Assembly: GCF_024713975.1 (NCBI RefSeq)
Contig: NC_091108.1
Span: 4,083,001 to 4,147,000 of the forward strand
Direction of reading: 5' to 3'
Length of the DNA stretch: 64,000 nt
From: Paralichthys olivaceus
Taxonomy: Eukaryota > Chordata > Actinopteri > Pleuronectiformes > Paralichthyidae
Shown piece by piece: positions 37,201 through 51,100 of the stretch (its first letter is position 1; each line of letters starts with the position of its first letter). The notes under the pieces were generated by a model. The model searched no databases and was not told the origin of the DNA. It was given only the letters and a program-made list of their open reading frames with translations. Made by a program: the position numbers and the translations under genes.

Positions 37201-40200
37201 TCACCACCTGGAAGAGATTGGATATAACATTAATTACAAAAAAAGTATTTGCCTGACTTTGTTTCCAAGAAGTTATTAAAAGATTTTAGTTATTACACTT
37301 AATCCCCAGATCCTGTAGGCTATAGTTTCAGTGCTACAACAAACCCCCCCCCTTTCGAGGCACCACGTACCCTTTCCAATGATGAGGCCGGTCTTCATAG
37401 TAGGGACGGTGAAGGTAAACTCCTGTAGGCCACCAGGGGGCCCCATGTTCCAGTTGCCCTGCCCACGGCCTCGCCCTCTGCCACCACCATGTCCTGGGGG
37501 TCCTCCAGCCTGAACACTCCTCAGCAGGTCAGATATGATCTCAGCTGCGTGTTGAGCCTGGTCAGGAGGACCCATGATCTGTGCTATTCTGTCTGGTGTG
37601 CTGCCGTCATCTGAGGTGGAAAACATATTGATTAGAGCCCATCAAGATTACATTCTCAAATTATGAAGTTGGGGAAACTTAAAAAAAACACCAATGATTG
37701 ACATTGGGGTCTAATGTCTCTGCATTTGTTCAGGTCTCAGAACTTAGGGTTGGGTTATACATCAGCTGCTCAGCGTGGTGCATGAGTTTTCATCATTGAC
37801 CAATTTAACTACATGTAATGAACCTTTTTTTTTTTTCAGTTGTTGGTTCTCAGATCTTTTTGAGACACTCACCTGGTTTAAATTGAATCCTGACGCCCGT
37901 GTCATTCTGTATCTTCTTGATCATCTCTCCATTTCTGCCAATAACGATACCCACTGCAAACCGGGGGACAGGGACCTATATGGTGATGGGACACAAAACC
38001 AAAACATAAGATGGTGTGGAAAACCCAAGGTTAGAAAATAAATAATGTATTAAAAACACTTACATCCAAGCTATCGCCTCCTCCTCCGCCGCCACCACCA
38101 CCGCCGCCGCCTCCACCAATTCTTGAACCATACTCGCCCCTCTGCTCCCTGAAGCCCTGGTCTCTGATCAGCTCCATGACCATCTCTTTGGCTTGCTGAA
38201 GAGAAACAGAATCATAACATTACACGGCCACTCTTTGTCTTTGCCCTGGAGTAGGTGATTGAGATGAATGTCTAAATAGTTGTGTGTTCAGGTCTCAGAA
38301 CTTAGGGTTGGGTTATACATCAGCTTCTCAGCGTGGTGCATGAGTTCTCATCATTGACCATCCACAGTTTAACAGCAGTGAAATTAGCTTTCTCTGTTGT
38401 TGTTTCCCTGATCTTTGTGACAAAGCTTACGTACTAATCTGGTAGAAAAAATAAGGCATCTCATCTGAATAATGCAGAGGATTTGTTGACATTGTGAACA
38501 AAACCTCCCGCTTCACTGTGCATGAGTGAAAGACAAACTGCTGGTAAAGTCTGTAGGTACATCTCAAGATTTTACCTGCAGGTTATGTCTGAAAACTGCT
38601 ACAGAGACAATGAATTACGGCAAGGGTCTGCCCACTAGTATTGTGATGAGTGTGTTATTTTATTAAGCGCTGTGAATGCAATGGTCTCGTGGACAATGAC
38701 CTACCTGAACTTTAAAGGGCTCTCCTGAAATGCGAAGTGGCTTGTCTGCACCGGTGTTTTGGGGTCCATCTTGGATCATGACCATCTTCACTCCGGCTCT
38801 TTCCTTCAGATCAAGAGAAACAAAATATATTCAGTAACTGTCTCCAATCGACACATTTTCACTTGTGATCACAGGCCGAACCCTCACCTGAAGGCTTTTG
38901 ATGGTTTCTCCACCCTTTCCAATGACAAGTCCGGCTTTAGAGGCAGGGACCATGATCTCCTGAACAGTCATTCCCGGACCATCATTGGGGTGGAACGCTG
39001 GAGCTGGACGTCCCTTCTCAACAATCTCTGATAGTAGTCTCTTTGCACCCCTGATGGGAGGAAAATAACCATCATGCACTTTCTAGAACTGTTGTAAAGG
39101 AACCAACTGAGCCTTTGATAACAATTTTACGCCAAGATTTGCTCCACAAGGGCTGGATACTCACTGGATTGCTTCTGGTGGTCCTGTTAACGTCACCGAC
39201 CTGTCTGGCATTCCACCGCTGTCTATTACACAGAAGGAGGAGCTGTTTATACAAGCCGTTCATAAACTATTGCATTTGATATCCTAGTATTAGCAACAAT
39301 ACCAAACCTACCAGGGGCAATTTGTATTTTACATCCAGATTCCTGCTGCAGACGTGATATTTGTTCGCCCCCTCTTCCAATAACTAGAAAGGGGGAGGAG
39401 TGTTACAACACAATCCAAGTGATAATAAAATTATGTTTTTATTGTTAACCATTTAAATTACAAACTTACTGAAGCCGACCATTCCATCTGGAACCTTGAA
39501 CTCTTCTGATAATGACCTAACAATGAAAAGTGTTAAGATTAGAAATGAACATTAAAATATTATTTTTCACAAGTGTGGGTGGTAAACAATTCAATTCAAC
39601 CTGTGTTACTTACCTTGGGGCACCACCCATTCCTCCCATTCCTGAAAAGGCTGCAAAAAATACAATACAATACTTTAGCAGTAAAAATGAACCATTAAGG
39701 GTGTAAGGCATCCACCAAATGTCCAATTAATGACAATTATCAAGAATTACAGTCATGTGATGAGCCGTTACTACCACCGAGTCATCATTGCTTCACTTAC
39801 CATCACTTGTAGCCACTTTCTTCGTCTCTGGTTGGTCTGTGACAACACGACACAATAACCAGAATAAGTATCTGTTATTAAACCCTCTATCACACTACTA
39901 TCAGGGTTTGAAAAAGGCCACCAGTTTCTTCGGTATACTTAGTTTAAGTTGTACAGGCCGACACAACAGCCAATTACCTCTTGACAGTGACAGACCACCA
40001 GTTCAATTATGGATAATTAAATGTTTACAGTTTCTATAATTATATGAAAAATCTCCCACACAATGTTTTACATCATTGCTTCTGCATAGAGCACAAAGAC
40101 TCTCTCATTCCTTCTTACCGTGCTGAAGTGGAAAATAAAATAAGACACTATAGTGGCAGAGTTTCTTAATATCTGACTAGAGGTGTGTGTTCAGGTCTCA

Positions 40201-41866
40201 GAACTTAGGGTTGGGTTTTACATCAGCTTCTCAGCGTGGTGCATGAGTTCTCATCATTGACCATCCACATTTAACTACTTTGAAATAACCCCTGTCTTGG
40301 GTCATGGTTGTTTCCCTGATCTTTTTGACAAGGCTTACTTACTAACCTGGTATAATTTAACCTTGACGTCTGTGTAATTGTTTTGCCCCAATATTTCAGG
40401 ACATTACCAGATTCCATTCATTACAGACAACATTCTCGTTGAATGGAGCGTAACTAGGTGTAACTAGGGCCTTTAAAGAAGTGCTGTATAATGGCTGCTT
40501 GCATAATGCATTTTGAGTAGAACAAGAACGAATTAGCGTTTGAATAGGCCAGTGTAGCCTGCAGGAGTTTCTGTAGACACGTGTACCATGTTCTGCTAAG
40601 GAAACGAGGTAAGAGAATGTCTTCTTTCTGTAATCTAACATCTTTATAGCAGAAAATAATTAAATGTGGCATAGATCAGCTAGAAGTGAATAAATGTTTC
40701 CTTGTATGGCTCATAGACGTGGCAGTGGCTACATGTGCTTTCTTGCCAATACCTGATGTGTAGTGAAAAATGGTTTGGCCAAAATAATGAAATGTATATT
40801 TAAAAATGGCCAGTAGTTACCCCCCCACCACCACAGTGCCTTGACCCAAGAAACCATTAGAAAACCCTGCATTACCAGTTCCATCGTGTACCCAAAACTT
40901 GGAAGTGATACACCACAGTGTTTGTATGTTCACATTCTCTTGACGTGAAAGCAGTAATAACAACCATATCTAGATTTTTACAGTCAAATTACACATCGAT
41001 TGGAAGAAGCTGTAAAAACCTCTTGAACACAACCACATGCTATAATCAACACACTGCATCACATCGACCACATGAGAACAAGCTGCTTCAACGTGGTTAG
41101 TAGCGATGTTAGCCTCATGGTTTAAAAAGCACATTGATAATTACACAGTATGATCTATGAGAGTATAATTTAGTAGCTGCTTTTAAAAAAAACACACACG
41201 GGCAGGCACTATCATCTATTAAGACTTGCATTGAATCGATTTGAGCCACTGACCGATATTCAGGTTAGGCATGGGAAAATACCCACCAGCGTCCTCCAGG
41301 GGCCTTTTCTGGCCTCCGTAGCCAAACTCATTTGATGGAGGAGCCGCGACGCCGTCGCCACCGATCTTCGCTGCGATCTGAAACAGAGAACGACAGAAAG
41401 AAGAACACGTTAGTTCTTCCGTCTTCTCTTTGTCTTGCAGGGTGAAGCAACACGATGCGTGCGGCCTCCATTCCCCCCACGAAGCCTCCACTCACAAAGG
41501 GAAACTTTAACTTTTTGCCAGCGAGCTCATGTTGTTATTAATGAAAGCGCAGAGATATAATCCCGCCGTTAACTTTGCTCATCTAACTCAGCCAGAGTTC
41601 AACGGAAACAGCTCTCCCCGTTTGGCCAATGTGGCGTAACGTGAGTCGTCGGTTTAGCTTAGCCTAGCCTTGCCTGACCCCGTGCGCGACAACAGGAAAA
41701 ACACGACAAACTTGACATTTATCACAAACTTCGATATGATTTAAGTACGAAAAGATCTTACGGGTCTTCCTACCTGTCGTGCTCGCTGCAGAGCGTCTTT
41801 AAAAGCGTCGTTCATCCCGCCACCGGAGTTGGAGGACGGCGGAGCCACGTTGCTGTAGTCAGCCAT
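34291..41866 (-). CDS. fubp1: Far upstream element-binding protein 1
   Basis: Nuclear single-strand DNA/RNA-binding protein. In mammals it binds the MYC FUSE element and controls splicing. Exons: 41866-41774, 41377-41287, 39836-39801, 39650-39614, 39516-39470, 39383-39312, 39222-39165, 39050-38888, 38803-38705, 38195-38064, 37975-37873, 37610-37371, 37207-37047, 36962-36811, 36695-36619, 36378-36253, 35946-35872, 35453-35391, 34684-34527, 34299-34291. They give 663 codons plus TAA (human 644). The start [12 protein letters not shown] and the [13 protein letters not shown] helix are conserved. Four KH domains show GRGG (104-107), GKGG (189-192), GRNG (289-292) and GKGG (389-392). A Pro/Gly linker and tyrosine-rich AWxxYY repeats form the C-terminus. 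Two oddities are a 14-glycine run (259-272) between KH2 and KH3 and an apparently duplicated [12 protein letters not shown] exon. The last exon encodes only GQ and the stop, as in human. Three introns carry snoRNA-like elements. Confidence 0.96.
37733..37802 (-). ncRNA. Candidate box C/D snoRNA, copy A (FUBP1 intron 11)
   Basis: On the host strand: closing stem GGTC, C box ATGATGA (37790-37796), D' box CTGA (37770-37773), C' box TGATGT just after it, D box CTGA, closing stem GACC. The D' guide ACTCATGCACCACG can pair with the 18S rRNA segment GTGGTGCATG. It lies inside the 262-nt intron 37872-37611, about 120 nt before the acceptor, a usual place for an intron-processed snoRNA. Flanking homology points to this as the parental copy. 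I do not recognise the snoRNA family by name. Confidence 0.75.
38290..38360 (-). ncRNA. Candidate box C/D snoRNA, copy B (FUBP1 intron 9)
   Basis: Near-identical to copies A and C, with all four boxes intact: C box at 38348-38354, D' box CTGA in CACGCTGAGAAG, C' box TGATGT, D box at 38295-38298. It has the same GGTC/GACC closing stem and the same D' guide. It sits in intron 38704-38196, about 95 nt before the acceptor. Confidence 0.75.
40193..40263 (-). ncRNA. Candidate box C/D snoRNA, copy C (FUBP1 intron 2)
   Basis: Boxes are C (40251-40257), D' (40231-40234), C' (40220-40225) and D (40198-40201), with the GGTC/GACC stem. It differs from copy B by about one base across the box-to-box core. 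It lies in intron 41286-39837, about 360 nt before the acceptor, further than usual. Box and guide preservation, while the flanks have drifted, suggests purifying selection or a recent copy. Confidence 0.72.
40300..40385 (-). pseudogene. Decayed fragment of the FUBP1 KH3 exon 3' end and its donor, next to snoRNA copy C
   Basis: On the plus strand, GATCTTTTTGA...ACCTGGTATAATTTAACC followed by TTGACGTCTGTGTAATT resembles the real exon end at 37850-37910 (GATCTTTTTGA...ACCTGGTTTAAATTGAATCC then TGACGCCCGTGTCATT). The reading frame is not kept and no acceptor precedes it. I read it as coding and donor sequence carried along when the snoRNA segment was copied. Confidence 0.55.
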
Positions 41867-48128: not shown

Positions 48129-51100
48129 ATGGGTAAAGACTACTACAAAACACTGGGCATCTCCAAAGGAGCCACGGAGGAGGACATCAAGAAAGCCTAC
48201 AGAAAACAGGCGCTGAAATGGCATCCGGACAAAAACAAGTCTGCAGCCGCCGAGGAGAAATTCAAGGAGATCGCTGAGGCTTATGAAGTCCTGAGTGATC
48301 CGAAGAAAAGGGAGATTTATGACCAGTATGGAGAGGAAGGTAATGTGCATGCTTTAGAATCACATCCTATACTTCCACCCCTGTGTGATGGTTGTTAATG
48401 CACCGTTATCAAAGCTGGAAGGTTGCATGTGAAGCTCAGCTGGATTTAATTCAAGCCAGCAGGCCCAGAAAACTGTTTTCCAACACATCACACACCTACA
48501 ATCTTCTGCATTTATAAGAAGTATCCTCCTGTAATTCAATATCTGCAGTTGTGTTCAAAAGAAGAAACTATTTCCACATCTTCTTTTCCTCAAAACGAGG
48601 CTGCTTCAGTAGGAAAAATCAGTGTTATGAAGGTTTCTGCACAGTGTGTGGCACCTACACTGTAGTTTCTGAGCACGCAGGTTTCATTTCCAGTCCAGAC
48701 GGTGATGGGTGGGAAGCATGTTTGAGGTGAGAAAGAGAAGAAAAGAGCACAGATCGTCACTAACAGGCTTGTATTCAGAACTAAAGGTGCCATATTATGA
48801 TTTCACCAGGTAGCAGGAGGAAGTGTAGTAAGTGTATGTGGTAAAAAAGGTGTATTTTCTGAGTAAAGCATGCAGGTATGCAAGAAGAAGCCCAAACATG
48901 TGTCACAGATGGCCTCTTTGAAAAGCTGAGCCCACTGAAGCCAATACAAGATCCTTAACACTGGCAGGAGACAAACCCATTTGTTTTTGTAAAACAGGAG
49001 ATTTTGAGACTTTGACACCCAAAGAGTTCCTGAATATCCTTTAAAGCAACTTAATACAGTATTAAAGTTATTTTATCAAACAGGATTGCAGTCTACCAAT
49101 ATGGATTCCGATGTGTCATCATCAAACAATGATGAGTCAACTGTAGGGCTGCTCAGAGATTCTTATGACCCATCAAAACACAATGAAAAAAGCCCAAAAC
49201 ACTTGTTTTGTCCAACTAAGGGTTGATGACACAAATATATATAAATATTCACCTCAAGTCAGGACAAATTCAAAGAACCATCTAATGTTTGATATAAATT
49301 ATGAAATGGATTGACTGGAGGTCTGTTGATGATCTGTCCAATTAATGGACTAATCATTAAGGCTCTAATAAACTGGGTTTAAAGCATATTGGTCACTCGA
49401 TGACTGATAAAGTCAGTCAGTCTGTTGTCAAAGTAGGCTTCACTTATGGCATTAAACTCCCCCACAGCATAAATGTCAGGATGACTGATGAATCATTTCC
49501 TTTTTCCACCAGGTCTTAAGGGAGGAAGTGGACCCACTGGTGATGGACCAGGCAACACCTTCACCTACACCTTCCACGGGGATCCTCACGCCACCTTCGC
49601 CACTTTCTTCGGTGGCTCAAACCCCTTCGAGATGTTCTTCGGGCGTAAGGCCAATGGGCGAGACGACGAGGACATGGAGGTGGATGGGAACGACCCCTTT
49701 GGCTCCTTCACCAGCTTCAACCTGAACGGCTTCCCCCGGGACGGCCACATCGGGCAGCAGCGCCGGAAGCAGGACCCGGCCATCGTCCACGAACTGAGGG
49801 TCTCCCTGGAGGAGGTCTTCCACGGCTGCACCAAGAGGATGAAAATCTCCCGCAAGAGGCTGAATCCAGACGGCAGGACCATGCGCAACGAGGACAAGAT
49901 TCTCACCATCGAGATCAAGCGGGGCTGGAAGGAGGGGACCAAGATCACGTTCCCACGGGAGGGTGACGAGTCGCCGAACACCATTCCTGCCGACATTGTT
50001 TTTGTCATCAAGGACAAGCCACACCCTCACTTTAGGCGGGAAGGTTCCAACATTGTGTATCCTGTTCGCGTGAGCTTACGACAGGTGAGGCCCTTTGTAT
50101 TTTGGCACCCACACTGACTGAGTGTAGTGATATTAATAGAGTCTGATCAGAACGAGCTCACATTTACAGGAGAGCTGCTTTAAAGCTCTGAACAGTCTGG
50201 TCACAACCCATAAACTGTAAGTAGTCTGCTGGAGAAGTTGTTTTTCCTTCACTCAGCCGCTCTCTATGAGCATAGTACGGAACTACACACACTTTGGATG
50301 TGTACTTATGTAATCTGGTTCATCAACATTGAGAAATAGGAGCTCTATTACAGGGAGGGTAGAGAGGCAGTGGCCGCCCACACACACACTCACACATGCT
50401 GCAAGATGTACTTATATGGATCCTCTTACTGTCCTCAACACAGTGAGATACATCTCACCGCTCATCTCTGAATATCTTGACTGCTGCAGAGTACAAACAG
50501 CAGCAGATCGGCCTTGCATCATGCTGACAAATCACACAGCTCTGACATATTGGCCAGTATTGGCTGGCTCGAGGTGTATTGTTTTGGTGTATTAGTCGAC
50601 AGACAGAAGAAAATGCAGAAGAGCAACATGTTTCTATGTACGTTTGCATGTATAAACATATTTGACTTATTCTGTTTAACTTAACGGGGAATACGTAGTG
50701 TTTGTGACGTAATTATTTAAACTGATAAAGTGGAGGAAATCAACGAAAATCCAGAAAAGAAAAGGTAAAAAGTTTGATTCAAAGAAAGAAATGTTGAAGA
50801 TATTTTCTAATGTAAACTAGTTTTAAAAAATCCTCTGGCTACACCATCCACCATTAGTGCTCTTAAGAATAATGCCCTAGCTAAGTTTTAAAACCTCTAT
50901 TTTACCTCTGTTGTCCAAATGAAAGAGCTGCTTCATATAACTCAGTGGACCACAGCTCATTGCATTGAATATCATTTTGATTATTTTACATGTGAATTCA
51001 TACATTGTGATGCAAACTGTCAGATATCGAGGATGACTTCATGTGGCTGTTTGCAGTGGATCATGTGCGGTTGGTTATTCTCTTGTTGATCCACCTGTTG

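Follow-up and report, generated by a model that had tools for sequence, protein, structure and literature searches.

Why do three introns of one gene carry nearly the same sequence of 70 nucleotides (nt), and what might that sequence do? This question is raised by a 64-kb stretch of the Paralichthys olivaceus genome (contig NC_091108.1, positions 4,083,001 to 4,147,000 of the forward strand; hereafter the window), in which introns 11, 9 and 2 of FUBP1 each hold an element with the architecture of a box C/D small nucleolar RNA (snoRNA), numbered here as copies 1, 2 and 3. With good confidence we regard the three elements as snoRNA genes for the Gm1328 site of 18S ribosomal RNA (rRNA), which stem from a family borne by KPNB1 and were multiplied from intron 11.

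Three box C/D elements in the introns of FUBP1

All three copies have the unit layout TGGTCA-ATGATGA-...-CTGA-...-TGATGT-...-CTGA-GACC. Each contains the C, D′, C′ and D boxes and the short terminal stem of box C/D snoRNAs, has a size within the usual 60-90 nt and lies in an intron on the host strand, as is characteristic of such genes (Table 1). A scan of both strands of the window for the full box set (C, D′, C′, D) together with a terminal stem of 4 bp returned exactly these 3 elements; an element with the full set occurred in 0 of 200 dinucleotide shuffles of the window, and for the 30-nt core 0.00 matches were expected (100 shuffles).

The copies differ pairwise at 2, 3 and 1 of 70 positions (67-69/70 identical), whereas 31/79, 38/105 and 27/84 positions of the 60-column flanks (32-39%) are mismatched in the three pairs, counting mismatches only and omitting 35, 14 and 33 gap columns, respectively. 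The contrast between element and flank is significant in every pair (Fisher p of 2.1e-8, 3.4e-7 and 1.4e-7). Judged from these features, it is well supported that the elements are box C/D snoRNA genes and that they were multiplied within a single host gene. The original prediction had described three host-strand elements of about 70 nt with these boxes and a GGTC/GACC stem in introns 2, 9 and 11, multiplied within one host gene, with boxes and guides kept and flanks drifted. Its coordinates were right to within 1 nt, the splice-checked exon model returned the same three introns, and both the multiplication and the contrast of kept boxes and guides with drifted flanks are borne out. It did not include the 49-nt repeat that copies 2 and 3 have in common, the decayed end of exon 11 or the relatives in other genes, and it named no target.

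Read on the minus strand, the first 12 exons of the modelled host gene keep an open frame and are separated by GT...AG introns, and the best solved-structure matches of the host protein were Far upstream element-binding protein 2, FUSE binding protein and Far upstream element-binding protein 1. The host is probably FUBP1 itself and not a paralogue, given an adjacent DnaJ gene read as DNAJB4. The exon for the DnaJ C-terminal domain of this neighbour lies at 49485-50117 on the plus strand, in agreement with the FUBP1-DNAJB4 neighbourhood of other vertebrates. By title or abstract, none of the papers listed in searches of open-licence PubMed Central (PMC) text, a library that lacks most subscription papers, describes a FUBP1 snoRNA; the suggestion in the original prediction that FUBP1 is an undescribed snoRNA host fits this search, and FUBP1 is apparently new in that role.

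Table 1. Coordinates of the FUBP1 elements and associated features in the window
Feature	Position	Strand	Remark
FUBP1 intron 11	37611..37872	(-)	holds copy 1
FUBP1 intron 9	38196..38704	(-)	holds copy 2
FUBP1 intron 2	39837..41286	(-)	holds copy 3
Copy 1, box C/D element	37733..37802	(-)	probable origin of the other two
Copy 2, box C/D element	38291..38360	(-)	
Copy 3, box C/D element	40194..40263	(-)	
C box ATGATGA, copies 1, 2 and 3	37790..37796; 38348-38354; 40251-40257	(-)	
D′ guide TCATGCACCACG, copy 1	37774..37785	(-)	10 nt (CATGCACCAC) pair with 18S rRNA GTGGTGCATG
D′ box CTGA, copy 1	37770..37773	(-)	
C′ box TGATGT, copy 1	37759..37764	(-)	
D guide AACCCAACCCTAAGTT, copies 1, 2 and 3	37741..37756; 38299-38314; 40202-40217	(-)	
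D box CTGA, copy 1	37737..37740	(-)	
FUBP1 exon 11 (KH3)	37873..37975	(-)	3′ end and 5′ splice site probably copied along with the snoRNA
Flank repeat of copies 2 and 3, 49 nt, 5′ side	38399..38447	(-)	second copy 40307-40355, 90% identical
Decayed copy of last 34 nt of exon 11, upstream of copy 3	40347..40379	(-)	26/34 alignment columns identical

The D′ guide and the 18S Gm1328 site

The D′ guide pairs without gaps, over 10 Watson-Crick pairs, with the eukaryotic 18S rRNA sequence GGTGGTGCATGG. This site is present, and paired by the D′ guide, in 4 of 11 fetched rRNA contigs (L001, L002, L008 and L011), while weaker matches elsewhere were seen in L004, L005, L007 and L009 (score 9-9.5). Moreover, two decayed 18S-like fragments of the flounder's own genome (L016 and L017) retain GGTGGTGGTGCATGG. 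The guide thus has the length of about 9-10 nt or more and the fifth-nucleotide register to rRNA that are typical of box C/D guides, and it shows the arrangement that marks a Gm1328 guide, i.e. CATGCACC followed by 3 nt and a D or D′ box and pairing with GGUGCAUG of 18S rRNA. In PMC3511168, Gm1272 of Arabidopsis snoR21 (AtsnoR21), Gm1328 of human U32 and Gm1269 of yeast snR40 are tabulated as one site. By its sequence, the D′ guide of all three copies points to this site in the register of human Gm1328.

Plant snoZ221/snoR21b (RF00300) and fly snoMe18S-Gm1358 (RF00533) share this D′ guide core, CAUGCACCAC with the D′ box after it. Outside the boxes and the guide the similarity of these families to the FUBP1 copies is weak; the resemblance is one of function and is no proof of common descent. 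Human SNORD32A/U32 has the same 18S target site according to the table in PMC3511168; it differs in being listed as a double guide in PMC2653536, where the double-guide functions of human U32 and U69 are assigned to single guides in chicken.

Under the proposed mechanism, the snoRNAs would be released from the FUBP1 introns and the mature RNA bound by SNU13, NOP56, NOP58 and fibrillarin. The D′ guide would then pair with GUGGUGCAUG of 18S rRNA, and a 2′-O-methyl group would be placed on the G facing nucleotide 5 of the guide, which corresponds to Gm1328 in human numbering.

Relatives in the genome and the probable order of duplication

Searches of the flounder's own genome covered 588 Mb on 25 contigs and returned the three FUBP1 copies and a fourth match on contig C14. 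The latter is intronic, and its host gene, which encodes SAP and LAIKA domains, was read as CCAR1. About 1 kb downstream of the CCAR1 element a SNORA28-like match was seen (L015:2564-2698 (+), C14; 42 bits, cut-off 65). An exact search for C box, guide and D′ box together gave 7 matches in the genome and 0 with reversed-pattern controls. Five of the 7 are C/D elements, i.e. the three FUBP1 copies, the CCAR1 element and one in an intron of KPNB1; the remaining two, a coding-like stretch on C8 and a place on C23 with no D box or stem seen, were judged by eye to be chance matches. The wider pattern CATGCACCACNCTGA, which contains no C box, gave 19 matches (reversed controls 0 and 1), six of which belong to the family with 50-102 bits against the family model; the other 13 had at most 16.2 bits or were unlisted and were dropped. 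Among the six is a second KPNB1 element, which the family model picked up at 50 bits and which alone lay outside its training set. These counts refer to exact-core patterns, which diverged family members without the exact core would escape.

The KPNB1 host was confirmed by a match to residues 702-876 of importin beta-1, and from the exons read the two elements occupy introns n and n+3. Between them, intron n+2 holds a SNORA79 (L032:3560-3697 (-), C5; 68.2 bits, cut-off 55). In KPNB1, the first copy combines the D box ATGA with a poor stem (-3.9 kcal/mol) and the second the C box GTGAAGA with a strong stem (-16.1 kcal/mol); in FUBP1 and CCAR1, the C and D boxes of all copies follow the consensus. 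Identity to the FUBP1 copies amounts to 47-48/66 aligned positions for the first and 46-48/65 for the second KPNB1 element and falls largely on the boxes and the guide; the spacing from C to D′ is equal, and the end TGAGACC is common to the elements of both hosts.

In human, U32 is hosted by RPL13A and carries its 18S guide at the D box. The flounder genome was searched for the SNORD33 family, with 59 of 88675 candidates scored, and the two places listed are both on C12 (L027/L028, C12:12952666-12953001 (-)); these two elements share the guide CATGCACTACCAT, score 70.4 and 64.5 bits and lie in a gene read as RPL13A. The sequence CATGCACC is absent from the fetched parts of this gene, two overlapping loci of 3.1 kb. 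An exact pattern for a U32-type guide at the D box had 2 genome matches at spacings of 40-70 nt, the range searched, both with no visible terminal stem and taken by eye as chance.

For chicken, the inventory in PMC2653536 lists GGgCD25 as the counterpart of snR40/snR21/U32, with 2 copies of 89 nt, located in introns 4 and 7 of KPNB1, and a 12-nt 5′ guide for 18S-G-1286. It resembles the KPNB1 relatives of the flounder in having two copies in introns three apart, and it differs from the fish family in its length (89 nt versus 63-70 nt) and, with KPNB1, in a host other than FUBP1. Because host, copy number and intron offset agree, the fish KPNB1 elements are likely orthologous to GGgCD25, which enters this comparison through its listing and not its sequence. 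We suggest that an old KPNB1-borne guide family, with two copies in this genome, gave copies to CCAR1 and FUBP1. That snoRNAs can pass from one broadly expressed host to another, and can be copied inside a host, is a theme known from PMC3511168 and PMC2653536.

A direction of spread within FUBP1 is indicated by the surroundings of copy 3, which resemble the copy-1 locus through the 5′ splice site of the intron into exon 11. At the collinear place the decayed exon 11 end has an alignment score of 34, compared with 12.2 (standard deviation 2.8) for random segments. This score was equalled by 26 of 20000 random segments drawn from a pool that contained the fossil site itself, and by our estimate that site explains most of the 26. 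No exon 11 signal was found in intron 9, where 239 of 300 shuffles were as good. A segment with the end of exon 11 and the snoRNA appears to have been copied out of intron 11; given the exon 11 fossil near copy 3, intron 11 would be the source, from which the copies in introns 9 and 2 descend.

Weighing the interpretation and its alternatives

Several results weigh against a family of processed Gm1328 guides. A score of 10 at some place in a contig is also reached by shuffled D′ guides (3-11 of 40 trials per contig), and the length of the pairing does not by itself prove the target; the argument for the 18S site rests on its being a known guide site and on a register equal to that of the Rfam families. 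An Rfam scan of the window, proposed as a check together with the original prediction, gave 0 matches at gathering score. Membership of the FUBP1 copies in an Rfam family was rejected, as all scores lie below the curated cut-offs: the best match at lax scores was RF00300 snoZ221_snoR21b (28.5, 26.6 and 26.3 bits versus a cut-off of 44), RF00533 reached 22 bits with copy 1 (cut-off 50), and U61 and snoR117 were also among the lax matches. Likewise, RF00133 SNORD33, the family given for U32 in PMC3511168, did not match the FUBP1 copies in the window at its gathering cut-off of 44 bits. Intact 18S and 28S rRNA of the own genome were not found with exact conserved patterns, and a DNA search for rRNA returned partial pieces only (46 matches, the best with 85% over 98 nt). 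Because the exact patterns are absent, the ribosomal DNA of this genome may be unassembled. Because the family model R1 derives from these copies, their own scores with it are not independent. When exon 11 was compared with the whole of intron 2 alone, the signal was weak, 23 of 300 shuffles being as good.

The same holds for processing. The terminal stems of copies 1, 2 and 3 (-7.8, -9.5 and -9.4 kcal/mol) are ordinary, given that -8 kcal/mol is attained by 24% and -10 kcal/mol by 12% of 5000 random spaced pairs, and strong stems were abandoned as proof of processing; the folds are not clearly better than those of shuffles either (z of 0.19, -1.73 and -1.44). An additional UGUG/CACA pairing outside the stem would be possible in copies 2 and 3, while copy 1 has a different outer pairing with a weaker total. 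Vertebrate C/D snoRNAs are best made some 70-90 nt from the 3′ splice site. Measured against this optimum, copies 1 (about 122 nt) and 2 (about 94 nt) are near and copy 3, at about 356 nt, is far. Overall, expression of the FUBP1 copies is predicted and plausible.

The strongest competing explanation, which we nevertheless find unlikely, places the chief present role in the FUBP1-specific D guide AACCCAACCCTAAGTT, directed at a second rRNA, small nuclear RNA, mRNA or host pre-mRNA target. These 16 nt are identical in all three copies, for which the chance at flank rates is 7.6e-4, 3.5e-4 and 2.0e-3 in the three pairs, figures that come from pairs that are not independent and that assume absence of gene conversion. 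The D guide therefore seems to be kept, unless gene conversion, which might equally keep it alike, explains the identity. The D regions of the CCAR1 and KPNB1 relatives are different and 6-7 nt shorter, and a second target common to the whole family was rejected on that account. As for rRNA, a 28S-type stretch in L010 pairs with 15 nt of the D guide at the cost of one mismatch (score 13, equalled by shuffled guides in 0/40 trials in L010 and 5/440 over the 11 contigs), and the first 9 nt match in register AACTTAGGG (about 9-11 nt) in L003, L006, L005 and L009, which are not four independent cases, as L003 and L006 come from one genome project and L005 and L009 have the same match. However, these matches do not hold generally across the rRNA contigs: neither type was seen in L008 or L011, the L010 stretch has different letters in L008 and L011, AACTTCGGG stands in L010 and L011 where a stretch similar to AACTTAGGG is seen, and shuffled guides likewise give scores of 9. 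No target of the D guide was convincing. The vertebrate form of the 28S stretch was not found in the own genome assembly, and within the window, including the FUBP1 transcript, the best match was 12/16 Watson-Crick (at one place with one G-U in addition), the guide's own complement excepted. That complement, CTTAGGGTTGGGTT, is like a telomere repeat minus one base (37741-37756 and the other copies), which is probably a coincidence.

It is improbable, though less readily set aside than chance, that the copies are unexpressed duplicates kept alike by gene conversion and not by use. The near-identity of the elements and the unremarkable stems and folds would suit such an origin; but the divergence of the flanks implies that the duplications are not recent, conversion tracts would need to end near the element borders in all three cases, and none of the copies has lost a box or either guide. 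Chance resemblance to snoRNA motifs can be dismissed, for although single boxes are short and common and matching one rRNA site or another over 10 nt is nothing unusual, a chance origin in the window is refuted by both shuffle tests, the 18S match falls on a known guide site and relatives exist in two other genes.

The interpretation as Gm1328 guide genes adds the FUBP1 copies to a guide family that is already known; the kind of gene is ordinary, and the host gene appears to be new. The second guide of the FUBP1 copies is possibly new and is the only part of wider interest. A bolder and rather doubtful proposal is that the FUBP1 copies gained this second guide, AACCCAACCCUAAGUU, which selection maintains and which directs methylation or binding to a site that other vertebrates are not known to have, and that FUBP1 and CCAR1 took over the Gm1328 task from KPNB1 and RPL13A; if true, host-gene switching and the gain of a new target would be combined within one family.

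The three FUBP1 copies would escape an annotation based on Rfam cut-offs, and the exon 11 fossil offers a rather direct record of intronic snoRNA copying inside one gene. Methylation of Gm1328 is listed for plants, yeast and human in PMC3511168, and the host of its guide changes: it is RPL13A in human, KPNB1 in chicken (PMC2653536), and FUBP1, CCAR1 and KPNB1 in the flounder. FUBP1 would thereby join the snoRNA host genes.

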